Below, one piece after another: positions 1 through 32,809 of a stretch of DNA of 61,434 bases; position 1 is the stretch's first letter; each line of letters starts with the position of its first letter. Under the pieces are notes generated by a model. The model saw only the letters and a list, made by a program, of their open reading frames with translations, searched no databases and was not told where the DNA came from. Both the position numbers and the translations under genes were made by a program. The stretch lies in contig JADFWU010000019.1 in assembly GCA_015234045.1 (NCBI GenBank), positions 1 to 61,434 on the forward strand. The letters are read 5' to 3'. This DNA comes from Magnetococcales bacterium. Its GTDB lineage: Bacteria > Pseudomonadota > Magnetococcia > Magnetococcales > JADFWU01.

Positions 1-1680
1 TTCGCGCCGGCTACTGACGAATAACGCCTTACCCATGAGTGTTACGTTCTCTTCAATTCGTTTTTCGTAGTGTTGGATAAAATCCTTGGCAAGTGCCTTG
101 ATGCGGTCAGGATCGCCTAGAATGGCTTTCATCTGCGTTGTGGCGTTTTTACTCTCTTCTATCTGGTAGTCGCTGGCGCCTTCTCGTTCGCATTGATCAT
201 AATAGGTTTCGATCTCGTCCAGCTTACTGTTATCCAGCACCACTTTTGCGGCGCGGCCTTCGTAGACGATGCGTACGGTGATCTCATCCTTTACCGATTC
301 GGCCATGGTGTAGGCGTCTACCACATCACCGAACACATCCAAGGTGGCATCAATGGGCGTTCCGGTGAAGCCGACATAAGTCGCGTTTGGCAGGGAATCA
401 TGCAGGTGCTTTGCAAAACCGTAGCTGCGCTTTATGCCTGTGTCTGTTCTGTGGATTTTCTGGTCCAGATTGATCTGGCTGCGGTGTGCTTCATCTGAGA
501 TACAGATAACATTATTGCGCTCGGTGAGCAGGTCGGTATCTTCGCTGAATTTGTTAATGGTGGTTAGAAAGACACCACCGCTTTTGCGATCTTTCAGCTG
601 TTCACGCAGTTTTGCGCGGCTCTCCACACTGATCACGGTATCATCGCCCAGAAAGCGTTTGGCATTGGTGAACTGAATGGAGAGTTGATCATCCAGATCG
701 TTTCGATCGGTGATCAGGATCAGCGTTGGGCTTCCGAAATCAATGCTTTTCATCAACAAACGGCAAAGGAACAGCATGGTGTAGCTTTTGCCGCATCCAG
801 TGGCACCAAAATAGGTACCGCCTTTACCATCACCGGTTGGTTTTCGGTGTTGTTTGATATTTTCGTATAGCTTGGTCGCTGCATAGTATTGTGGATAGCG
901 ACAGACGATTTTTTGTTCTTGATTGGCGCTATCCGGCAGATAGATAAAATGGTGCAGTACTTCGCGCAGTCGGTTTCGGTCGAACAGACCGTGAATCATG
1001 GTGTTCAAGGAATCAACACCATCGCGTTCCATGGACTCATCACCGGTGATCTTGCGCCAGGCATAGAAATATTCATACGGCGCAAACAACGAACCCACCT
1101 TAGTATTGACACCATCGCTGATGACACACAGGGCGTTATATTTCAACAACTCTGGAATATCGCGCCGATATTGGGTGGTCAGCTGAGTATAGGCAGTATG
1201 GATGGTAGCCTCTTTGCGAATCGCGCTCTTGAACTCAAACACCACCAACGGCAAACCATTGATAAAAAGAGTGCCATCCGGAATGCCTTTTTTATTACCC
1301 TCAATGGCCAGTTGATTGATGATTTTATAGAGATTGTTATCGGCTTCCGCGTAGTCGATCAGCTGGATATGGAGATCTTTTTGGCTACGGTCTTCCCGCT
1401 TGAGCAAAAAGCCATCTGAAACCCATTTCATAACGGTTTTATTGGAGTTGTACAGATCCAAAGCGGAAAGCCGCTCCAACTGACTGATCACCGACTCAAT
1501 TTCACCACTGGTAATCTGTGCTCCGGCATACTGCTTTTTCAGAAATGCCCGAAGATCTTTTTTAATCAAGACTTCATGGTACTGCCGCTCAATCTGCGCC
1601 CCTTTGACCTGGGCGTAGCCCTGCTGAACCAAGAGCTCAGTAATGGCCTGCTCCAGTATGCTTTCGGTAAATTGACTCAT
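1..1680 (-). CDS. hsdR: Type I restriction enzyme R subunit, 3' end beyond window
   Basis: This is the motor and nuclease subunit of a type I restriction-modification enzyme, which translocates DNA using ATP and cuts when the S/M complex meets an unmodified site. The first 560 residues are present without a stop; the C-terminus lies outside the window. A PD-(D/E)xK-type nuclease region is visible, with PDGTLF followed by FEFK at residues 148-151. A Walker A motif GATGCGKS lies at 292-299 and the DEAH box at 396-399, as in superfamily 2 helicases. The start codon overlaps the stop of the upstream S gene by 4 bp (ATGA), so translation is probably coupled. No frameshift was seen in the visible part. 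The family assignment is firm. Confidence 0.95.
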   Translation of the reverse strand, partial: MSQFTESILEQAITELLVQQGYAQVKGAQIERQYHEVLIKKDLRAFLKKQYAGAQITSGEIESVISQLERLSALDLYNSNKTVMKWVSDGFLLKREDRSQKDLHIQLIDYAEADNNLYKIINQLAIEGNKKGIPDGTLFINGLPLVVFEFKSAIRKEATIHTAYTQLTTQYRRDIPELLKYNALCVISDGVNTKVGSLFAPYEYFYAWRKITGDESMERDGVDSLNTMIHGLFDRNRLREVLHHFIYLPDSANQEQKIVCRYPQYYAATKLYENIKQHRKPTGDGKGGTYFGATGCGKSYTMLFLCRLLMKSIDFGSPTLILITDRNDLDDQLSIQFTNAKRFLGDDTVISVESRAKLREQLKDRKSGGVFLTTINKFSEDTDLLTERNNVICISDEAHRSQINLDQKIHRTDTGIKRSYGFAKHLHDSLPNATYVGFTGTPIDATLDVFGDVVDAYTMAESVKDEITVRIVYEGRAAKVVLDNSKLDEIETYYDQCEREGASDYQIEESKNATTQMKAILGDPDRIKALAKDFIQHYEKRIEENVTLMGKALFVSSRRE

Positions 1681-3377
1681 AGGGCGTTCTCTATCAGTTT
1701 TTCAGCATCTGGGATGCGGAGTTGGCCGGATAGGAGTTTGGGTAGGAGGGTGTCTCGGAGTTTTTTAAGGCTTATTTTCTCAATATTTTTTTCAAGAATA
1801 CTATCAAAAAATGGTCTAACTAGATCTTCAAACTCAACCGTTAGTTTCTCCCCACCAAATGGGGTTTGAATTGTGCCAAAAGTATTTCTTGTAATAGTAC
1901 TAAAAACAGAACCGTGGCTTCTTAGTTGCAAGTCGGACACTCTTAGCAATATCGTATAATATGTAAAAATATCTGAAATATTATCTATTCCGTTAATGCC
2001 ATAACATGATTGATTCATCGCCATTGGATACCCAACTATTGCACACTTCCCAACTGTCCCTCGCGCACTAATTATCGTCGTCCCAGTTCTAAGTATTTTT
2101 GTCGAAGAGTTTTCAACACCTAGTTTTGTTACATGCTTTTCTGTTTCCACGACAAAAACATCTGAAGGTTCTGGTGCATCCACAACAGAAAACCAAGGAA
2201 TATCACCTCCCCAACAATCAGAGTTGGATGTCTTTGGTGTTCCACCACCAATAAGATCAATCAAGGTATTTAACGGTCTAACCTCCCACCCTTCCGGCAC
2301 CCAGCCCATTTCCTCTCTGAATTCAAACGCACTGGGAAACTGTGTGCGGATCTGATCAGGAAGGGTTTTACGGGCAGCGCCCAGGGCTTGGCGGGTGGCG
2401 GCTTTGGCCTTGAGCGCATCCGGGATCTCATTGCCAGCGGCCAGGGCATTGTCGATCACTGGATCAAAGTCCACAAACCAGCTCTTGAACAACGCCTGAG
2501 CCATGGACTCCAGGGTTTCATTCATCTGGCGGTTTAGTTCGATTTTATCGTCCAGTGAACCGAGAATGTGGGCGATGGCTTTTTGTAAAGTATGCTCTGG
2601 GATACGGAGAGGTGCCTTTGACAATATTCCCGTATTAAGGTTTGGCATTGTTGCACCAATCGCATGCCTAACTATCCATTCTTGATTTTGTGGTGTACTG
2701 AGATGATAAAAAAGAAATTGTGCGTCAATACCATTTCCAGGTCGAACCAATAGACACCCTGTTCCACAAAACATCCCTGCTTCGTCTTTCCGAATTAAGG
2801 CCTTGCGAGTTACATCACCTCTCCGGCTATATATAATATCATCAGCTTTAACAATGTGTCTCGATAATCGATCCGCATCATCCTGGGTAATACGAACAAC
2901 ACATGTTAAATCTATAGCATTATTAACAATATTGATCGGCATAATGCATGGTATACCGTCATCAACATAATCAGATGCATGCAATTGACTGCCAAAAGGA
3001 CCTGTCTGTACAAAACCACCCCCCTGACTAACGACCTTTCCTAAAGTCGTTACAACCCACTCACTCCCCACATCCCAGCCCCCCTTCTGCAAAATCTCAA
3101 ACCCCTTCTCAATCACCGCCCGAAAAGAGTCCGATACTCCCCACCAATCCAACAGATCCACCCGGATAGGCAGGTCGGATTCAGCAAACGCCTCTTCCAG
3201 CCGGTTCATACGGCGTTTTTCTATCTTCTGCTTACCAACCAAGGCCAAGTCCAAATCGGACTGTTCTTTGGCTGTCCACAGCACACGAGAGCCGAAAGCC
3301 CGTACCTCACATTCTGGTACATGCTCGGCAAGAATGCGCTTTACGGTCGCCAAATAATCGGGAGCAAGATCAATCAT
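1677..3377 (-). CDS. hsdS: Type I restriction S subunit with N-terminal MNT nucleotidyltransferase domain
   Basis: This is the 566-residue DNA-specificity subunit of the type I system, with an unusual N-terminal extension. Residues 1 to about 97 form a minimal nucleotidyltransferase (MNT) domain: GS at 29-30, then exactly ten residues, then D41-L-D43, with a further Asp at 74 in IRVDLLDW. This matches the GS-x10-DxD signature of MntA-like antitoxins. From about residue 101 it reads as HsdS, with two AT-rich variable target-recognition regions (about 2600-3050 and 1740-2280) separated by a better conserved central segment around LGSLDDKIELNRQMNETLES. The start was placed at 3377. The open frame runs further upstream, but that part lies inside the HEPN gene in another frame and has no MNT similarity. 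The 8-bp overlap with the HEPN gene supports coupling. Inference: the fused domain modifies the neighbouring HEPN protein. Confidence 0.88.
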   Translation of the reverse strand: MIDLAPDYLATVKRILAEHVPECEVRAFGSRVLWTAKEQSDLDLALVGKQKIEKRRMNRLEEAFAESDLPIRVDLLDWWGVSDSFRAVIEKGFEILQKGGWDVGSEWVVTTLGKVVSQGGGFVQTGPFGSQLHASDYVDDGIPCIMPINIVNNAIDLTCVVRITQDDADRLSRHIVKADDIIYSRRGDVTRKALIRKDEAGMFCGTGCLLVRPGNGIDAQFLFYHLSTPQNQEWIVRHAIGATMPNLNTGILSKAPLRIPEHTLQKAIAHILGSLDDKIELNRQMNETLESMAQALFKSWFVDFDPVIDNALAAGNEIPDALKAKAATRQALGAARKTLPDQIRTQFPSAFEFREEMGWVPEGWEVRPLNTLIDLIGGGTPKTSNSDCWGGDIPWFSVVDAPEPSDVFVVETEKHVTKLGVENSSTKILRTGTTIISARGTVGKCAIVGYPMAMNQSCYGINGIDNISDIFTYYTILLRVSDLQLRSHGSVFSTITRNTFGTIQTPFGGEKLTVEFEDLVRPFFDSILEKNIEKISLKKLRDTLLPKLLSGQLRIPDAEKLIENAL

Positions 3378-3795
3378 TGCGCTTAGTGATCTCCGCCTGG
3401 AATTTTTTAGCTTCGTGGTAAAACTCAGTGGCGGAGTTGAACACCTCGGCTGCGGTTTCTTCATCGTAGGTGTGAGAGGTGCGGTTGCGATCCTTATGGT
3501 AGTCCATCCACAGATCCACATCTCGGATCAGATGATATTCAGCGCTGAGGCGGAATAACTCTCGTCGTGTCACGCCATCCACGTAGGTCTCACCCACATT
3601 ATGGGCCAACCAGCGCTTCATCAGCTTCCAGCAAAGCTCATAGGTGAATTCGAAATTTTGGATCACACCGGCCTTGATAGCCTCCTGAGTGTCCGAATCA
3701 AACGCGTCCATTTTTTCAGAGGAGAGCGCCACCGCCACTGAGCGCCCCAAAGAGGCAACTGCTTTTTGTAGGCTATTGAGTTCCAACGCCATCAT
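3370..3795 (-). CDS. HEPN-domain protein, HI0074/HepT-like, candidate RNase toxin
   Basis: This 141-residue, mostly helical protein belongs to the HI0074 (nucleotidyltransferase substrate-binding) branch of the HEPN superfamily. The diagnostic motif is KDRNRTSHTYDEETA: R103, four residues, H108, then Y110, i.e. R-x4-HxY. In characterised HepT/MntA systems, HEPN proteins with this motif are RNase toxins. MntA neutralises them by adding AMP units to the motif tyrosine. Here the MNT partner is fused to the next gene product, HsdS. The gene is squeezed between hsdM (4-bp ATGA overlap) and mnt-hsdS (8-bp overlap), so all are probably translated from one mRNA. The toxin role is inferred from the family. 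A scaffold role for the nucleotidyltransferase is the alternative, because the HI0074 branch is less well characterised. Confidence 0.85.
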   Translation of the reverse strand: MMALELNSLQKAVASLGRSVAVALSSEKMDAFDSDTQEAIKAGVIQNFEFTYELCWKLMKRWLAHNVGETYVDGVTRRELFRLSAEYHLIRDVDLWMDYHKDRNRTSHTYDEETAAEVFNSATEFYHEAKKFQAEITKRND

Positions 3796-5351
3796 TCATC
3801 TCCAAACCCCAGAGCGGCCAGATTTTTTTTAATCACCTGATCCAGTTTTTCAGACTCGGCCATCTGCTTAAAGAGTGTTTTGGTCAGATCCGCCATCTTC
3901 TCTTCAAAGGGAATCCCATCATCCTCAATCTCAGCCGCGCCCACATAGCGCCCTGGTGTCAGGACATAGTCGTTTTTCTTAATCTCTGCCAAAGTGGCGG
4001 ATTTGCAGTAACCCGCTTTGTCCTCATACGTCCCGTCCTTCTTTTCACCGCGCCAGGCGTGATAGGTCCGGGCGATGTCGGCAATCTCTTCGGTTGAAAA
4101 CGCTTTGTGGGTGCGGTCGATCATTGAACCGATGTTGCGGGCATCAATAAATAAGGTCTCGCCTTGGCGGTCCCGATAGTCGCGCCTGGTATCGGCTTTT
4201 TTGGATTTGGACAGAAACCACAAACAGACCGGAATCTGTGTGGTGTAGAAAAGCTGACCCGGCAGGGCAATCATGCAGTCCACCAGATCATTTTCGATTA
4301 TCTTCTGACGGATCGCGCCTTCACCAGTGGTGTTGGTAGACATGGAACCGTTGGCCAGAACAAACCCGGCAACACCATTTTCCGATAGCTTGGAAATCAT
4401 GTGCATGATCCAAGCATAGTTCGCATTGCCGGTGGGCGGCACGTCATAACCGCTCCAGCGCGGATCTTTGGTCAACTCATCCGCTGCGCGCCATTTCTTT
4501 TGATTAAACGGCGGATTGGCCATCACATAGTCGGCTTTCAGATCCGGGTGCTGATCCTTGAAAAACGTATCCGCTGGCACCTCTCCGAGATTGCTGGAGA
4601 TACCACGAATGGCCAAATTCATTTTTGCCAACTTATAGGTAGTGGCCGTGCCCTCTTGACCATAAATTGAGATATCTTTATTGCTGCCTTTATGACTCTC
4701 AATAAATTTGACCGACTGGACAAACATACCACCCGATCCGCAACAAGGATCATAGATCTTACCTTTGAACGGCTCGATCATCTCCGCAATCAGATTGACA
4801 ACACTTTTAGGCGTGTAAAACTCACCACCGCCTTTACCCTCTTTAGCGGCAAATTTGCCGAGGAAATATTCATAGACACGTCCGACAATATCCTCTGTTT
4901 TATCCTTAACCGTATCAATGTTGCTGATCGCATCAATCAGCGCCGCCAGCTTGCTTGATTCCAAGCCCAAACGAGAGAAATAGTTGTCCGGCAATGCGCC
5001 TTTGAGGGATCTGTTTTTCTTCTCCACCGTGGTCATTGCCGTATCAATTTTAACGGCAAGATCATCCTGTTTGGCGTGTTTTTGAATATAGGACCAGCGC
5101 GATTCTTCCGGCAGATAGAACACATTCTCCATGGCATAAAATTCCACCATGTCGATGTACTGCGCCATATCCTCATCTATCAATTGTTGCTTACGCTGTT
5201 CAAACTTATCACTGACAAATTTCAAAAAAATCAAACTCAATACAACATGCTTATACTCCGAGGACTCCACTGTGCCTCTGAGTTTGTTTGCCGTATCCCA
5301 CAGCGACTCCTCAAAATTTTTTTCTTTTTTTGCAGCGGCTTTTCTGGCCAT
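3792..5351 (-). CDS. hsdM: Type I restriction-modification system N6-adenine methyltransferase M subunit
   Basis: This is the methylase subunit, which with HsdS methylates adenine in the recognition sequence using S-adenosylmethionine. It has 519 residues, the usual length. It shows an N-terminal helical HsdM domain (NFEESLWDTANKLRG...), the SAM-binding motif DPCCGSGGMF preceded by GEFYTPKSVV, and the catalytic NPPF motif in YVMANPPFNQKKW. An AAAGGA ribosome-binding site lies 6 nt before the ATG. The gene begins 13 bp after the ligA stop with no terminator between, so read-through from ligA is likely. It overlaps the HEPN gene by 4 bp. Confidence 0.96.
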   Translation of the reverse strand: MARKAAAKKEKNFEESLWDTANKLRGTVESSEYKHVVLSLIFLKFVSDKFEQRKQQLIDEDMAQYIDMVEFYAMENVFYLPEESRWSYIQKHAKQDDLAVKIDTAMTTVEKKNRSLKGALPDNYFSRLGLESSKLAALIDAISNIDTVKDKTEDIVGRVYEYFLGKFAAKEGKGGGEFYTPKSVVNLIAEMIEPFKGKIYDPCCGSGGMFVQSVKFIESHKGSNKDISIYGQEGTATTYKLAKMNLAIRGISSNLGEVPADTFFKDQHPDLKADYVMANPPFNQKKWRAADELTKDPRWSGYDVPPTGNANYAWIMHMISKLSENGVAGFVLANGSMSTNTTGEGAIRQKIIENDLVDCMIALPGQLFYTTQIPVCLWFLSKSKKADTRRDYRDRQGETLFIDARNIGSMIDRTHKAFSTEEIADIARTYHAWRGEKKDGTYEDKAGYCKSATLAEIKKNDYVLTPGRYVGAAEIEDDGIPFEEKMADLTKTLFKQMAESEKLDQVIKKNLAALGFGDE

Positions 5352-9569: not shown

Positions 9570-9687
9570 GCTAAAAGCTTCTTGGTTCATACCATCCGCA
9601 CACGTCAGCGGCATTGGATTAGGATCAAAAGCAGGTTATGAATTGCTCATTGAGCCATTCATTACATATTATAAGAGAGGACTTGAC

Positions 9688-10131
9688 GTGAATGACTTGA
9701 ACCAAATTTATACATTGGGACTCAGAGTCCACAATCAATTAAGCCACCTTGCAGCTGGATACTATAAAGAAGAAGAAGTCACCGCTTTACCAGCCTTCCA
9801 AAATGCGGTCAAATCTGCCTTTCAAGGGCCCATGCAAAGATCTCACGCTCTGTTTTTTGGGAATTTGGTTTATAATTTTCAAAAAGAAGAACAAGAAGGT
9901 GAGACAATTGAGCTTCAACGCCCCTGGTATGAAGTAAAGAAAGACCTTGCAACCAACCCCAAGTATAGCAAGACTGTTCAGAACGTGCAGGACAAGCTCG
10001 AAAGCGCAATAGAGATCGCTAAAAAGTCTCCATCAAACTCAAAAAAGGACAAGTCGTTTCGTAAGATAGAGAAAGCCATTGCCCGTTATCTTAACGCCAT
10101 TAGAAGCGCATCTTTAAAAACCGACTTCTAA
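9688..10131 (+). CDS. Hypothetical protein, first gene of an orphan cassette
   Basis: This 147-residue protein matches no family I recognise. It is charged and helical in appearance, beginning MNDLNQIYTLGLRVHNQLSH, with a lysine-rich C-terminal part (KKSPSNSKKDKSFRKIEKA). There is no signal peptide or membrane segment, so it is probably cytoplasmic. I chose the GTG at 9688 because AGAGAGGA lies 7 nt upstream; the open frame reaches back to a TTG at 9643 that has no such site. The next gene starts 14 bp after the stop, so the two form an operon. Base composition is more AT-rich than in the flanking housekeeping genes, consistent with acquisition. Function unknown. Confidence 0.7.
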   Translation: MNDLNQIYTLGLRVHNQLSHLAAGYYKEEEVTALPAFQNAVKSAFQGPMQRSHALFFGNLVYNFQKEEQEGETIELQRPWYEVKKDLATNPKYSKTVQNVQDKLESAIEIAKKSPSNSKKDKSFRKIEKAIARYLNAIRSASLKTDF

Positions 10132-10145
10132 ACCCAAGGTGATTG

Positions 10146-11591
10146 ATGGGCACTACAGACGAATATACAGACGCTGCCGTGGACAACGCTGCTCCCACTC
10201 AAAACCAAAGATCATGGTCACCAAACCTAGATTTTAAAGACGCACTAAATGACAGGCTCGCCTGGGAATTTCGAATTAGAAGTGTAAAACGGCTATTCAA
10301 AGACAGTGTCGCAACACCATTAAAAAACTTGGAGCAATTGGATACGACCTCTGGTCGCCCCATTGATGTTGTCACACAGATCGCAAAAACAGCCGAACTT
10401 TATGATATAGAAGAACTCAAATCGCTTAATGCTATTGAGAAAAGGTTGTCCGACAAGGAAAAGCTTGATGGCGGTCACAGCCTGGCAATAACGGCCCTCT
10501 TTGAGCTGCATCTTGCGCTGGATAAAATCCAACTATCCGTTGGAAAATTAGACGATATTTCTTTCACATTAACGGATAACAAATACTCTCTTATCGTACC
10601 GCTGGAAACCATACTTAATAAATTATACGCCCTTCTCCTCCCTCCCTCTGGGCCTCAAACCTATTTAGTCACCACACACTCAAAAGCACTGCCATCCATC
10701 ACTGATTTTGAAGCCGAAGGAGATGGATTCTATATTCTAAGCCTTGCACCGCGACAGGCAAACAAACCTAGAAATGGTGTATTTCTAGCACTACATGAAT
10801 TTTCGCATAAAATTTGTGAATATGTTCGCCTGCCGTTACCCCATTCTGACTCAGAGCCTAACCCAATGACACCAACCATTGCTTTCGAATCTTGGGCCGG
10901 AGAAAAGCTGGAACTATACAGAACAAACGCGGAAGAGCTTGGAGAGATCCCAGGCATGGAAGCATATGACCTTGGCGAACACCAAGATCTTAACGACATC
11001 AAATCATCATACAAAACGTATACATACGCTGATGGTTCGGAAGAACCATACACTTACTCGCCAGACGATATAATTTCGGGAATAGTCACCAACCATCTTG
11101 TAGAATATTTTTGCGATGCTCTGCCCGTCAGACTCCTTGGAAAAGAGAATTGCGAAGCCACTTTAACTGCATTGGTTGATGAGTTTCTGTCAAGAGCACA
11201 CAACCCCCCAACATTTTCCCATCCGGAAAACTGGCGCCGAATGGCGTTCGCGACATCAACAGCTGAAAAAATGGGCTGGAGAGCTGATAACGCCCCGTCT
11301 AACCATAGGAAGTTTGTTAGATCTATAATCCGTGCTTCCGCGCCCCCTATTACAGCAAAAGAACAGAAAGACCTGGAAAAACAATATCGAGAACAAGGGC
11401 GAGGATTTGAGAGGTTTATCGCAAAACCAATTTCAGAAAAGAGCATCGGATACCATGCATGGGCTCAAAAGATCGTCACCGCCCTGCTTCCTGAAGTAAA
11501 TTTGATGATCAAAAACTGTGCTGAACATATTGAACGCTCTGACTCCGAAGCCTGCAAAGAATTGAGAGACCTCGCTCATAATACTCTCTAA
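10146..11591 (+). CDS. Putative zinc-dependent metallopeptidase, unknown family
   Basis: This 481-residue protein has a zincin motif, LALHEFSHKI, with HEFSH at residues 217-221. A downstream acidic segment, LVEYFCDAL, has Glu at about 320 and could supply the third zinc ligand in gluzincin fashion. The motif sits in a predicted helix next to a hydrophobic strand (NGVFLALHE), as expected for a real active site. No signal peptide or transmembrane segment is visible, so it probably acts in the cytoplasm. Translation starts at ATG 10146, with AAGGTG 5 nt upstream. It is paired with the 147-residue protein before it. The peptidase call rests on the motif only. The substrate is unknown; cleavage of its neighbour or of a phage or host protein are possibilities. 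Confidence 0.55.
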   Translation: MGTTDEYTDAAVDNAAPTQNQRSWSPNLDFKDALNDRLAWEFRIRSVKRLFKDSVATPLKNLEQLDTTSGRPIDVVTQIAKTAELYDIEELKSLNAIEKRLSDKEKLDGGHSLAITALFELHLALDKIQLSVGKLDDISFTLTDNKYSLIVPLETILNKLYALLLPPSGPQTYLVTTHSKALPSITDFEAEGDGFYILSLAPRQANKPRNGVFLALHEFSHKICEYVRLPLPHSDSEPNPMTPTIAFESWAGEKLELYRTNAEELGEIPGMEAYDLGEHQDLNDIKSSYKTYTYADGSEEPYTYSPDDIISGIVTNHLVEYFCDALPVRLLGKENCEATLTALVDEFLSRAHNPPTFSHPENWRRMAFATSTAEKMGWRADNAPSNHRKFVRSIIRASAPPITAKEQKDLEKQYREQGRGFERFIAKPISEKSIGYHAWAQKIVTALLPEVNLMIKNCAEHIERSDSEACKELRDLAHNTL

Positions 11592-11689
11592 ATCCCTCCG
11601 TTTTTTCACACATTCTCACATTTTTTTGATATCGTGGTCTCTGAACTTATATTGCCCATCATTAGTCTGACATATAAAAAGCCTGAACT

Positions 11690-11715
11690 TTATAAACCCT
11701 TAAAATTGTTTATAA
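11690..11715 (+). promoter_or_regulatory. 8-bp dyad upstream of the third cassette gene
   Basis: TTATAAAC (11690-11697) and GTTTATAA (11708-11715) form a perfect inverted repeat with a 10-nt spacer, 148 bp before the TTG start at 11863. Both arms contain -10-like TATAA sequences. It may be a promoter/operator giving the third gene separate control, or simply AT-rich symmetry. Confidence 0.3.
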
Positions 11716-11862
11716 GACACGGTTACATGTTAGGAGATTCTCTAATTTTTCATTGAAGAATCAACGTTTCGTAATTGGCAAGTTGATACTCTACCAGGAT
11801 GTGTTTCCATGCATCTTTAAAGCAAGAGAATTTCCGCAACTGATTAACTGAGGCGTTGAACA

Positions 11863-13197
11863 TTGGCTACTGCTCCCCACCACAAATTATCTGACACAGC
11901 ATCCTTGCGGAAGTTTGCCGAGGATATGGCCGCTATTATTGTCAGTGGCAAGGAGCCAAGCACTTTCCAGGAGATGGGCAGCGTTAAACTGCGTGCACCC
12001 CTTCCCACTGATAGCAATCCCACCCACTGGTACTCTAATCTCAATGAACATATCGTCTCATTACACGATATGGCCAAAATCATACTCTCCTCATCCAACA
12101 AATTTGCTTCTCAGGTGCAGCTTGAGGCCATTATTGAGCCTTTCTTAAAGAAAATATCCTGGGCATGGGGTGAAGCACGTGTTTGCGTTATGGCACAAGC
12201 ATCACAGGAGCTGTCACGCACCATTGAACCGCTTTATCCCAATCTTTTTATGGAAGGTAATACGCACTGGGTGGGTGGGTTTTTGCCGGCTGTCATATCG
12301 TTTTTTGTTCCAGATCCCGAAACCGCCAAACCAGAGTCACGGCTCCAGTTGCTGGTTTCAACCAAAGGCGGCATTGCTGACGTATTGAACACTATGGAAC
12401 AACACTTGCCGACACTTCTGGACGGATTGCCCTCTCAAGCCTATATGTTGGCCGCTCTGCCTAATGTGCATCCTTTTGATAAAAAATGCTCGTTAAAATC
12501 ATTTCGAAGACTAAGAAGACTCCTGGTCCAGGCAAACAAACTTGAGGTTGACGTGTGCTGCATGACTGTTGATGTACCATTCTTCTGGCCTGCAATGCAC
12601 CGTAATAGCACAGCACACTCCAAAGAAGCTCTATCCATTCAGAAAAAATTTCTATCAGGCGACAAGATCATTCTTCTACCGGAATTAGGGAAAAAAACAA
12701 ATCCAAGCCCCAAGAGACCTCTGTTAATGTCAGTCAGAAGCTCAGGGGTTGAGTGGATAGCCAGTGTAAGCAGTTCCTACCTGACCAGCTTACAGGATGG
12801 TGCTGACGGAAGCCATCATAAGAACTTTTCATCTTTCGTCTCTGGCTTGGAAAGCTGGGGCCCCAACCTTGAAATGCCACAGCCGGATAAAACCTGGGCT
12901 GGACGTATCGGTCTAACCAACCACAAAGCTCTTCAGAAGGCGCTTACCACCCTCTATCCAGAACGAACTCTGGACAGCGATGAACAGATACTTGCAACCT
13001 TTAACCCTCTGCTACATGACCTTAAAACCATTCTCCAGTGGGCGGAACAGTATCAGGACTCAGCTTTCCCTTTTGATACGCCAGACTATAATGGCCTTTC
13101 TCAGGAACGATTTGAAGAGCTTGCCAGTTTTGCAAGGAGTATTGCCAAAATTTCCCACTCACATCAGAAACCGACTCATTTTGATGATACTCTATGA
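11863..13197 (+). CDS. Hypothetical protein, third gene of the orphan cassette
   Basis: This 444-residue soluble protein has no family I recognise. It starts at a TTG with GAGG 9 nt upstream. Notable are a predominantly helical N-terminus, a central segment of alternating hydrophobics (GFLPAVISFFVPDP, QLLVSTKGGIADVL), a cluster of cysteines (LEVDVCCMTVDVPFF), and a C-terminal part with AGRIGLTNHKALQKALTTLY. No catalytic motif is evident. It is separated from the putative peptidase gene by 271 bp, so it may be independently transcribed. It ends convergently 24 bp from the desuccinylase-like gene, with a 16-bp palindrome right after the stop. Confidence 0.65.
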   Translation: MATAPHHKLSDTASLRKFAEDMAAIIVSGKEPSTFQEMGSVKLRAPLPTDSNPTHWYSNLNEHIVSLHDMAKIILSSSNKFASQVQLEAIIEPFLKKISWAWGEARVCVMAQASQELSRTIEPLYPNLFMEGNTHWVGGFLPAVISFFVPDPETAKPESRLQLLVSTKGGIADVLNTMEQHLPTLLDGLPSQAYMLAALPNVHPFDKKCSLKSFRRLRRLLVQANKLEVDVCCMTVDVPFFWPAMHRNSTAHSKEALSIQKKFLSGDKIILLPELGKKTNPSPKRPLLMSVRSSGVEWIASVSSSYLTSLQDGADGSHHKNFSSFVSGLESWGPNLEMPQPDKTWAGRIGLTNHKALQKALTTLYPERTLDSDEQILATFNPLLHDLKTILQWAEQYQDSAFPFDTPDYNGLSQERFEELASFARSIAKISHSHQKPTHFDDTL

Positions 13198-30693: not shown

Positions 30694-31024
30694 TTGTACG
30701 TCCAAGCCCTCGAAGATAAGAGAATCTGTAAAACATTAAGAGAGACCTATGCCGATTTTTCGACTCTGAGTGAGAAAAAAAGGTGCACAGGTTATGAAAA
30801 CGTTATATCAACTGGAACCCTGTCTTTGAGAAAACACCAAAAGCAGTGCCCAAAATGGCACACCGGGAACTCCCGAGCAGTATGATTCTAACCTTTTTGA
30901 ATATGAACAACGGTTTAGGGACCTTTTAACGGGTCTAAGGGCGTGTTTATTTTTAAGGGAATTGAATCAGACCGATAAATTGTGTTCAGACAGGATGTGC
31001 AAAACCTAATCACACGGATGGCCG
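30694..31024. other. Divergent intergenic region rho/truD
   Basis: This 331-bp region separates the divergent rho and truD genes and must hold the promoters of both. It is AT-rich, with several short ambiguous -10-like sequences. I saw no RNA gene, convincing operator or mobile sequence. A long rho leader, used for autoregulation in other bacteria, would fit here but cannot be shown from the sequence alone. Confidence 0.4.
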
Positions 31025-32113
31025 ATGTCAAACATAAAAACGCTTCAAAGTGCAAAAAAGTCGATTATTACGCCTAAACTTCCCTTAGCGCATGCTAATG
31101 CGGGGTTAGGTGGTGTTCTCAAAAGCACACCAGAAGCATTTCGCGTCTGGGAGTTAAGACCAGAGCCGTTGAGCGGCTCCGGTGATCACCTCATTCTAAC
31201 CCTGGAGAAGATCGGACTCAACACCAATCAACTTGCCGACCAACTGGCCAGGCTGTTTGGCGTTCATCCACGAGAAGTGGGCTATGCCGGGAAAAAAGAC
31301 CGCCATGCGGTAACCATACAGGATTTTTCCGTACTTTGCCCCAATGAAGAACCAGAGGGCTGGCGTGATACCCTTCCAGAAGGCGTGCGCCTTCTCACCG
31401 TGGGACGGGACAGACGCAAAATCAAAGTCGGCCATCTCTCCGGCAACCGCTTTGAAATTCTACTAAAAAGAGAACCCGACCCATTGGCTGAACACGAATC
31501 AAAAGCAGCCATGACGGACAAAATCGAGCACACAGTCAAACTCATCACCCAACACGGCGTTGCCAACTACTTTGGTGCCCAGCGCTTCGGGAATCAAGGC
31601 GACAACGCCCAACGCGGTTTTGCCATGCTCAAGCAAGGATATAAAAAAGCACGCCGCATGAACCGTAATCGCCGGGGCATGATGATTTCAGCAGTGCGCT
31701 CGGAGCTTTTCAACCAAATTCTGGCAAAACGAATCAAGGCCGGATACTTCAACACCCTGCTGGATGGCGATATTGCCCAAAAAGATGGCCGCAGCGGCGC
31801 ATTCCTGGTTGAAGATGCCGAAGTGGAGAAGGCGCGTTTCCAATCCCATGAGATCCATCCCTCCGGCCCGCTGTACGGCACATCACTGCTGATGGCAAAC
31901 CAGTGGCCCGGCGAGCAGGAAAAATCTCTGGCTGAAGAGAATGCAGAAGCCATCAACGGCTTGGCCGCCTTCCGCGTCAAAGGCGGACGCAGAGCACTGC
32001 GCGTATTTCCCGAGGATTTTTCCTGGGCTTGGCAGGAGGATGACCTTCTGTTCTCATTCACACTGCCGCGTGGCTCGTATGCCACCGTTGTGCTGGAGCA
32101 GTTTATCGGGTAA
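31025..32113 (+). CDS. truD: tRNA pseudouridine(13) synthase
   Basis: This 362-residue enzyme converts U13 of tRNA-Glu to pseudouridine. It shows the TruD-specific motif GYAGKKDRHAVTIQDFS with the catalytic Asp in KDR. It also has VANYFGAQRFGNQGDNAQRG, the insertion domain, and the C-terminal motif RALRVFPEDFSWAW. Length is normal. It appears to be monocistronic, divergent from rho and 174 bp before the next gene. Confidence 0.95.
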   Translation: MSNIKTLQSAKKSIITPKLPLAHANAGLGGVLKSTPEAFRVWELRPEPLSGSGDHLILTLEKIGLNTNQLADQLARLFGVHPREVGYAGKKDRHAVTIQDFSVLCPNEEPEGWRDTLPEGVRLLTVGRDRRKIKVGHLSGNRFEILLKREPDPLAEHESKAAMTDKIEHTVKLITQHGVANYFGAQRFGNQGDNAQRGFAMLKQGYKKARRMNRNRRGMMISAVRSELFNQILAKRIKAGYFNTLLDGDIAQKDGRSGAFLVEDAEVEKARFQSHEIHPSGPLYGTSLLMANQWPGEQEKSLAEENAEAINGLAAFRVKGGRRALRVFPEDFSWAWQEDDLLFSFTLPRGSYATVVLEQFIG

Positions 32114-32287
32114 ACAACAATAATCAGCCCGATTTTGGGGATATTTCAGTCAGAATTTCAATTATTCCAAAAAACTGTTGGAGAAACCATTGTCTGGCAG
32201 GGGTGAAGGACGTTACCATATTGCGGTTGTAAAATGTGCCTGGCATTGTGCAGAATCCCGAAGCCAGTCGTCAGAATTGGGACAGGG

Positions 32288-32809
32288 ATGAAAAAAGGGA
32301 TGATTCAGATACTATTCAAATTTATTTCAGCAGTGCTACTGCTCACAATCGCCTCAACCGCCCTGGCCGAAGCGCCGGAAAAGGTGGAAAAAGAGGTGAT
32401 CATGCGCCGTGGAGAACTGGCTGAACTGTTCGGCGAAAGCTCCGGTCCTGATAGTCGGTATCCCGTTATGGGTGGTACTGGCGCGGCCGCTGTCAGCTGT
32501 AGTCCGTTGGTGATCCGTCGTGTGCCTGTGGCCGCGTTTGGTCATGTCAACGTACAACGCAACCGACAAGGCACCATCACGCTGGTCGGCATGACACCGC
32601 CGCCCAACGCCTATGGACGCTTTGAAATCGTTGATGCCGGACTGCCGGAAGGGTTCTTTGGGCTGATGTCCAGCAGCAGTGGCGACTACTTCCATGTGGT
32701 TGAGGTTCTTGGCTGGGATCCAAAAATGCCCACTAACTCCTATCGGAAAAGTGCGGTGGCCTTTCGTGATGGCAACGAAGTTATGGATGCCTGTTTCGGC
32801 AACCATTGA
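32288..32809 (+). CDS. Small exported protein of unknown function
   Basis: This 173-residue protein starts at ATG 32288 (ACAGGG just upstream) with a signal peptide KKGMIQILFKFISAVLLLTI. The mature part has a beta-rich pattern (ITLVGMTPPPNAYGRFEIVD, FHVVEVLGWDP) and two cysteines (SCSPLV, DACFGNH) that could form a disulfide. It carries one PVMGGTG segment, like the repeat in the DUF5666 lipoprotein at 26.1 kb, which may be coincidence. It lies 36 bp before bioF on the same strand, so it may be transcribed with the biotin operon. No known family recognised. Confidence 0.6.
   Translation: MKKGMIQILFKFISAVLLLTIASTALAEAPEKVEKEVIMRRGELAELFGESSGPDSRYPVMGGTGAAAVSCSPLVIRRVPVAAFGHVNVQRNRQGTITLVGMTPPPNAYGRFEIVDAGLPEGFFGLMSSSSGDYFHVVEVLGWDPKMPTNSYRKSAVAFRDGNEVMDACFGNH

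Follow-up and report, generated by a model that had tools for sequence, protein, structure and literature searches.

We analysed a window of 61,434 nucleotides of DNA from a Magnetococcales bacterium (the whole stretch, contig JADFWU010000019.1 of assembly GCA_015234045.1), whose first 5.4 kb, starting from the contig end at window position 1, hold on the minus strand the genes hsdM, a HEPN gene, a fusion of an MNT nucleotidyltransferase domain to hsdS (hereafter MNT-HsdS) and hsdR. The hsdM gene (3792–5351) encodes a type I DNA adenine methylase of 519 amino acids (N6_Mtase PF02384, 370 bits; HsdM_N PF12161, 86 bits), the HEPN gene (3370–3795) a predicted RNase toxin of the HI0074 family (141 amino acids; PF08780, 132.1 bits for a cut-off of 31.8), and the fusion gene (1677–3377, ATG at 3377) a protein of 566 amino acids, assigned with Pfam, AlphaFold and Foldseek. 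The hsdR gene (1–1680) is truncated by the contig end and present with its first 559 residues (HSDR_N PF04313, 123 bits; SWI2_SNF2 PF18766, 185 bits). Pfam, NCBIfam and PADLOC concur in these assignments. Judged by its gene content, i.e. hsdM, an hsdS with two target-recognition domains (TRDs) and hsdR, seen as this first part, in one operon, it is a type I restriction-modification operon.

Each gene overlaps the next one, in turn by 4, 8 and 4 bases: the hsdM stop and the HEPN ATG share ATGA (3792–3795), the HEPN stop and the MNT-hsdS start share eight bases (ATGATTGA, 3370–3377), a spacing also present in 41 of the 54 plus-strand fusion loci described below, and the hsdR ATG overlaps the MNT-hsdS stop. 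A longer open reading frame for S (614 amino acids, start at 3521) was rejected, as it begins inside the HEPN gene and hence too early, the ATG at 3377 suiting the family. An earlier note, made from the sequence of this locus, had described a HEPN gene with R103-x4-H108-x-Y110 immediately before the S gene, and an MNT core at the front of the S protein. Both descriptions hold: the HEPN gene runs from 3795 to 3370, every residue named for the core (GS-x10-D41-x-D43 and D74) is correct, and the MNT domain comprises residues 1–98.

The MNT domain and the HEPN protein match the HI0073/HI0074 pair

The MNT domain (3084–3377) was delimited by alignment to HI0073 (1no5) and by PF18765/PF01909; on residues 11–88, Pfam reports Polbeta PF18765 at 31.1 bits (cut-off 26.9) and NTP_transf_2 PF01909 at 26.6 bits (cut-off 21). 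The GSX10DXD catalytic motif (G29-S30…D41-x-D43; 3249–3293) and the third catalytic Asp, D74 (3156–3158), are conserved in fusions. In the rest of the protein, matched twice by Methylase_S, a first TRD (residues ~105–260, approximate boundaries from AlphaFold and Foldseek matches to HsdS; 2598–3065) is followed by a central coiled coil (residues 262–302; 2472–2594), a long helix in the model that coincides with the conserved alignment columns 260–307, and by a second TRD (residues ~355–507; 1857–2315), for which the model and PF01420, with its best stretch at 361–502, agree. The AlphaFold model, computed with a family alignment as input (pLDDT 91.9), retrieved both HsdS (1yf2, E 1e-25) and HI0073 (1no5, E 4e-10) with Foldseek. 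Its MNT part lies on HI0073 with a root-mean-square deviation of 1.0 Å over 99 columns at 47% identity, and its S part superposes on the HsdS structures 1yf2, EcoKI and EcoR124I. The PADLOC Specificity_I profile PDLC03138 aligns its own positions 1–121 to fusion residues 1–121; MNT-bearing S proteins are therefore already inside the PADLOC library, without comment.

The HEPN protein consists of the HEPN domain only, and lacks the N-terminal ABC NTPase domain of PrrC type. Its model, obtained in the same way (pLDDT 94.9), best matches HI0074 (1jog, TM 0.90) and next the HEPN toxin of Legionella, in structures of the free protein, of its AMPylated form or of its complex with MNT (8yuf, 8xdj, 8xeh). 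Since HI0073 and HI0074 are the halves of one known pair, MNT-HsdS and the HEPN protein are expected partners; the fold prediction that the earlier note had proposed for the MNT residues thus returned HI0073, and that of the HEPN protein HI0074. The motif RX4HXY (R103, H108, Y110; 3466–3489) is the predicted RNase site, Tyr110 being the predicted AMP acceptor, and these three residues are the sole invariant columns in an alignment of 77 HEPN sequences, the median pairwise HEPN identity across operons being ~36%. In the fusion operons, R103 is found in 60/60, H108 in 59/60 and Y110 in 59/60.

The Pfam family of the HEPN protein is NTase_sub_bind (PF08780), and the protein scores 95.3 bits (cut-off 55.8) with NCBIfam TIGR01987, the HI0074 subfamily; the scores for the NCBIfam HepT/MntA equivalogs, 14.8 and 26.4 bits, lie below their cut-off of 60, and no PADLOC model covers the protein. 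Type VII HEPN-MNT toxin–antitoxin systems of Class I are defined by PF08780/PF01909 with RX4HXY and GSX10DXD, and include the HI0073/HI0074 pair (PMC7641770). On the HEPN side, a PF01934 protein with RX4HXY would qualify as well. The window has this very combination, a PF08780 HEPN with RX4HXY beside a PF01909 MNT with GSX10DXD, and for a structurally related pair in Legionella the RNase and AMPylase activities are proven (PMC11586414), so that the HepT/MntA-type assignment made in the earlier note is borne out. Three further HI0074-type HEPN genes are present in the window's genome (G000:C22:61940-62630, C22:67968-68327 and C53:18012-18721), with adjoining MNT genes that are unfused to S.

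MNT-HsdS behind a HEPN gene is a recurrent architecture

Scanning GTDB genomes with an MNT profile returned 482 relatives, of which the best 80 were retained; 53 of these 80 are MNT-HsdS fusions, and their usual gene order is M, HEPN, MNT-HsdS, R. Together with the loci of an earlier locus search and the window itself, the scan loci amount to 63 fusions (loci carry L numbers hereafter), i.e. 62 in database genomes beyond the window, the plasmid copy of Zymomonas being counted apart. They are spread over Poribacteria, Chloroflexota, Pseudomonadota, Acidobacteriota, Nitrospirota, Myxococcota, Bipolaricaulota, Spirochaetota, Verrucomicrobiota, Deinococcota, Planctomycetota, Bacillota, Fibrobacterota, Thermodesulfobacteriota, Rhodothermota and Gemmatimonadota, and within the Magnetococcales, the order of the window, they occur in 10 of 48 sampled genomes. 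Most fusion loci are from metagenome bins; six are in chromosome-labelled assemblies (L052, L063, L077, L084, L088, L107), and a cultured case is given by Zymomonas mobilis ATCC 10988, whose complete plasmid pZMOB01 carries M (30878–32470), HEPN (3–392; WP_014466388.1), MNT-HsdS (389–1972; WP_014466389.1) and R (1969–5154). A sequencing error that removed a stop between the two parts, which the earlier note had kept in view, is thus ruled out as the origin of the fusion by the 62 further cases, the six chromosome-labelled assemblies and the complete plasmid. The MNT query matched nothing in phage genomes, and the Zymomonas HEPN and MNT-HsdS genes had no DNA match in E. coli genomes. MNT-HsdS with a HEPN gene upstream is a recurrent architecture, found in at least 16 phyla.

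The catalytic residues of the MNT domain are almost invariant: among the 63 fusions, D41 is present in 63, D43 in 62 and GS in 63, the last count being biased as G and S belong to the MNT search pattern, while position 74 is Asp in 60 and Glu in 3.

HEPN and MNT are paired, conserved together and retained in decayed operons

A HEPN gene lies directly upstream of MNT-HsdS in 60 of the 63 fusions, which answers the database check suggested in the earlier note. The three exceptions keep traces of replacement or loss. L039 has a frameshifted HEPN tail only; in L066 (~500–1740) an Abi_2 gene (PF07751, 1e-51), itself of a HEPN-type family (PMC3710099), and in L070 (6725–8008) a Schlafen AlbA_2 gene stand in place of the HEPN body, and in both a HEPN C-terminal stump (…LEARND stop) is left ahead of MNT-HsdS. 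MNT-HsdS can therefore outlast the toxin gene. In these last two loci, effector genes were exchanged between hsdM and MNT-HsdS. In searches from the HEPN side, the 30 top hits for the HEPN protein of the window have an adjoining MNT that is intact or runs to the contig end in 27 cases, truncated in one and missing in two, and all hsdM-adjacent HEPN genes of the HEPN-based search have an MNT behind them.

Among close pairs, the ratio dN/dS of MNT is ~0.04–0.2 in most of the more diverged ones, and that of HEPN is 0.12–0.44. L088 and L100 share 89% identity in MNT and 88% in HEPN for 41% in S. These values indicate that MNT and HEPN are under purifying selection and that the S recognition domains diverge or are swapped. 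Distance correlations are 0.52 for MNT-HEPN, 0.45 for MNT-M and 0.19 for HEPN-M, the first two not being significantly different. Tandem HEPN genes precede MNT-HsdS in L043 (3034–3860), L048 (1337–2327) and L090 (7079–8004); the first copy has lost RX4HXY in L043 and L048, and both copies retain it in L090. They are possibly active/inactive HEPN pairs.

HEPN and MNT also survive in loci with a decayed S, M or R gene (L017, L127–L129, L199). In the Magnetococcales, L017 consists of an M end, HEPN, MNT, a stop, an S start and a piece of R, and L127, L128 and L129 are free HEPN-MNT pairs beside pieces of M; from these remains, several free HEPN-MNT pairs of this order are read as remnants of such restriction operons. 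In Acetobacter pasteurianus IFO 3283, S is interrupted by IS5 and R is short, with M, HEPN and MNT intact; in A. ascendens LMG 1591, M is not annotated, IS1380 lies upstream and HEPN-MNT-S-R is left. Such persistence would be the behaviour of a toxin–antitoxin pair.

A probable toxin–antitoxin module embedded in a restriction operon

The conserved unit is probably a type VII-like (HepT/MntA-type) toxin–antitoxin module sitting between hsdM and hsdS, its antitoxin usually fused to S, that would make the operon hard to lose and provide a second, abortive line of defence. By its fold and RX4HXY, the HEPN protein would be the RNase toxin. In proven relatives, MntA AMPylates the Tyr of RX4HXY, which blocks the RNase (PMC7641770), and the Legionella pair works likewise (PMC11586414); given the GSX10DXD motif and D74, the MNT domain of HsdS very likely does the same, moving AMP onto Tyr110 and holding HEPN off. 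The overlap of the two genes is expected to couple their translation, so that toxin and antitoxin-S would be produced together. Because antitoxin and specificity subunit share one polypeptide, the cell would have to keep making S; upon loss of the operon, failure of S synthesis or take-over of the host, newly made HEPN would stay unmodified and growth would stop. We infer here both the toxicity of HEPN and its coupling to the loss of S. The most likely net outcome would be an operon that resists its loss, with abortive defence added to restriction. More tentative is the wider proposal of a widespread self-guarding restriction, in which S acts as AMPylating antitoxin of its own RNase, and in which the removal, block or arrested synthesis of S, whether by a phage or by genetic causes, would trigger an RNA-cleaving abortive defence.

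Several observations weigh against the embedded toxin–antitoxin module. In the wider family, HEPN genes without an intact MNT were found (L141, L144, L145, L164 and L165, with a truncated MNT in L159 = L190); a HEPN protein of this kind is therefore either not lethal in every case by itself or kept silent in trans. In L086, the HEPN motif is intact beside an MNT with D43G and a broken S. The decayed loci were found through HEPN or MNT, so that their count is biased. On Acetobacter plasmids, the same operon has separate, often overlapping, mnt and hsdS genes; the fusion is therefore not required. The idea that HEPN never occurs without MNT is thus not absolute, as established by the HEPN-based searches: the dependence of HEPN on MNT is strong, not absolute. 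In L141, L144 and L145, an intact HEPN gene of the Legionella-like subfamily is followed by just the first residues of an MNT-like gene, which suggests toxins that lack their antitoxin or are silenced in trans. The link by fusion on which the earlier note built its inference has to be restricted in the same way: the link is common, and Acetobacter does with separate genes, A. pasteurianus IFO 3283 keeping HEPN and MNT in spite of an S cut by an insertion sequence.

Fusion, fission and exchange of recognition domains

Whether the fusion itself matters was weighed against the alternative that it is a by-product: mnt and hsdS overlap, cassette exchange of the first TRD at the 3′ end of mnt would make or break the fusion, and only the embedding of the toxin–antitoxin pair would count. 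In a tree of MNT and HEPN, built with a quick method and with SH-aLRT support only, fused and free-standing pairs are intermixed and the well-supported branches require at least 14 changes, which speaks for this alternative; a single origin of the fusion is thereby ruled out. Four pairs of relatives with a swapped first TRD locate the breakpoint at the MNT/linker border, with identities of 88% for MNT (residues 1–78), 14% for the linker, 21% for the first TRD and 81% for the centre. In Acetobacter, where mnt and hsdS are separate and the hsdS/hsdR DNA is 84–90% identical to that of Zymomonas in the aligned parts, the last 17 MNT residues vary with the cassette (31% vs 91%). We infer from these comparisons that cassette exchange of the first TRD makes and breaks the fusion. 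Yet exchange at random would disrupt the reading frame roughly two times out of three, whereas fusion is the rule: the genome samples contain 53 fused loci among the intact copies embedded in restriction-modification operons and no separate mnt and hsdS, a count biased toward fusion since the samples were drawn with fused MNTs. Because split copies are absent from these intact embedded ones, fusion is probably favoured over the split state. MNT has also been fused once to HsdM, and we regard the by-product explanation as rather doubtful.

This MNT-HsdM fusion (706 amino acids) is in the Magnetococcales locus L125 (3193–6882), which reads HEPN, MNT-HsdM, second HEPN and MNT-HsdS. It is an independent fusion, directly behind its own intact HEPN gene; MNT has therefore been attached to restriction subunits more than once. 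The MNT-HsdS of the same locus has lost both TRDs and kept MNT and two coiled-coil regions. At the junction of MNT and S in the window (within 3377–3060) there is a run of six G, and in L037 a run of seven; homopolymers are present at the junction in 6/63 fusions, for 3.3% expected per stretch. An indel in the run of the window would shift the frame, and slippage may possibly convert fused into split frames and back, at this locus too. In the archaeal locus L097 (7600–8535), HEPN-MNT lies behind hsdMSR, and the final 70 residues of hsdR recur after it in a copy of 94% identity, which looks like an insertion scar.

Relation to known systems and to other mechanisms

A different explanation sees the module as a guard of PrrC type: MNT-HsdS within the M2S or R2M2S complex would hold or modify HEPN, and once this complex is bound or taken apart by an anti-restriction protein of a phage, active HEPN would be freed directly. 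There is a precedent in EcoprrI, a type IC operon that, as in the window, contains the gene of a HEPN RNase, and whose anticodon nuclease PrrC the type I enzyme keeps silent until T4 Stp releases it; control by the restriction enzyme is likewise expected for the window. PrrC differs in having its own ABC NTPase domain and in being silenced by binding, whereas the HEPN of the window is a lone domain and the predicted AMPylase MNT is fused to S. Ronin and PARIS, which sense anti-restriction proteins, resemble the window in a possible back-up role when restriction is blocked. Ronin lacks R and has the short toxin RonA (PMC12409349), whereas the window has hsdR and is thus not a Ronin system; PARIS is a separate two-gene system, and MNT on S is reported for neither in PMC12409349. 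Also in favour of the guard explanation are the position of the antitoxin on the very part that such inhibitors target, and the TIR, Mrr, AAA/AbiEii-like and Schlafen AlbA_2 cargo genes in the same operons. However, in the HEPN-MNT systems studied the antitoxin is an enzyme and AMPylated HEPN stays inactive even without it (PMC7641770, PMC11586414), so that inhibition of S need not free HEPN, and in Acetobacter MNT is not linked to S. A block of S would therefore act mainly via newly made or de-AMPylated toxin, and a direct release as for PrrC would need de-AMPylation or unmodified HEPN kept in the complex; for the Legionella toxin, activation is proposed to follow from degradation of the labile MNT or from a shortage of ATP (PMC11586414). 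We consider the guard possible and, on balance, unlikely. Of the earlier note's reading of S as carrier of the antitoxin, the pairing thus stands, and the release of the toxin upon inhibition of S is no more than possible, since AMPylated toxin stays off without antitoxin.

The cargo genes lie between S and R or between M and HEPN, and encode TIR, Mrr_cat, AAA_21 (AbiEii-like), TIR plus AAA, and Schlafen AlbA_2 proteins, at L037 8878–9990, L057 9656–10924, L058 9654–10865, L063 11172–12914, and L077 5847–7604 and 9592–11106.

An effector role, with S carrying the HEPN RNase to unmodified foreign DNA, where recognition or translocation would stop AMPylation and nearby foreign transcripts would be cut, is improbable: MNT directly adjoins the first TRD in the chain, and the PDB entry 9z7q, in which Cmr1 of type III CRISPR is fused to MntA, puts MntA on nucleic-acid-sensing complexes elsewhere, but HEPN is a free protein and the N-terminus of S has no known movement upon recognition. 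That HEPN is a mere substrate-binding subunit, with MNT modifying HsdM, HsdR, DNA or a small molecule, the original reading of HI0073/HI0074, is echoed by the Pfam and NCBIfam family names and by the MNT-HsdS kept without HEPN in L039, L066 and L070, but is very improbable given that no feature of HEPN is better conserved than RX4HXY, a motif shared by related RNases in which its Tyr is the site of AMPylation.

For the embedded toxin–antitoxin module, the closest known systems are the type VII HepT/MntA pairs, which share with the window the RX4HXY HEPN beside a GSX10DXD MNT, the folds and the gene overlap; in the window, unlike these, the antitoxin is the N-terminal domain of a 566-residue HsdS inside an hsdMSR operon, and the pair is of the HI0074 subfamily. 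Anantharaman et al. 2013 linked HEPN domains to restriction systems and proposed PrrC-like control (PMC3710099). Their systems resemble the window in that a predicted RNase is restrained by restriction subunits; in those systems it is the toxin domain that is joined to a restriction or helicase subunit, and HsdS goes unmentioned in the paper, whereas in the window it is the antitoxin that is joined, and to the specificity subunit. With PrrC/EcoprrI and that work, a HEPN RNase held by restriction is therefore not new in principle. Cmr1-MntA likewise carries an MntA-type domain on a subunit of a nucleic-acid defence complex, the complex being different; the literature searched contained no accompanying paper for 9z7q. 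Two reviews on type I enzymes, from 2013 and 2025, do not mention nucleotidyltransferases, and a description of MNT-HsdS was not found in the literature on HEPN/MNT with HsdS or type I restriction (subscription papers lay outside the search), in accordance with the earlier note, which knew of no described function for the fusion. New here are the frequent interchange of fused and unfused states, the split Acetobacter operons, the persistence of HEPN and MNT upon decay of M, S or R, and the MNT-HsdS kept after loss or replacement of the toxin in three loci.

Type I restriction systems are usually not regarded as addictive, and there are few known cases of a back-up that takes over when phages inhibit restriction. 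In at least 16 phyla, the architecture joins the subunit for DNA recognition and the predicted antitoxin of a predicted RNase in one protein, and it would give a concrete role to one of the commonest toxin–antitoxin families. With a fused copy on Zymomonas mobilis pZMOB01 and split ones on Acetobacter plasmids, the effect of the fusion is testable in cultured strains.

Elsewhere in the window, three successive open reading frames on the plus strand (9643–13197; 162, 482 and 444 amino acids) have no Pfam match, the second containing a HEFSH motif like that of zinc peptidases.

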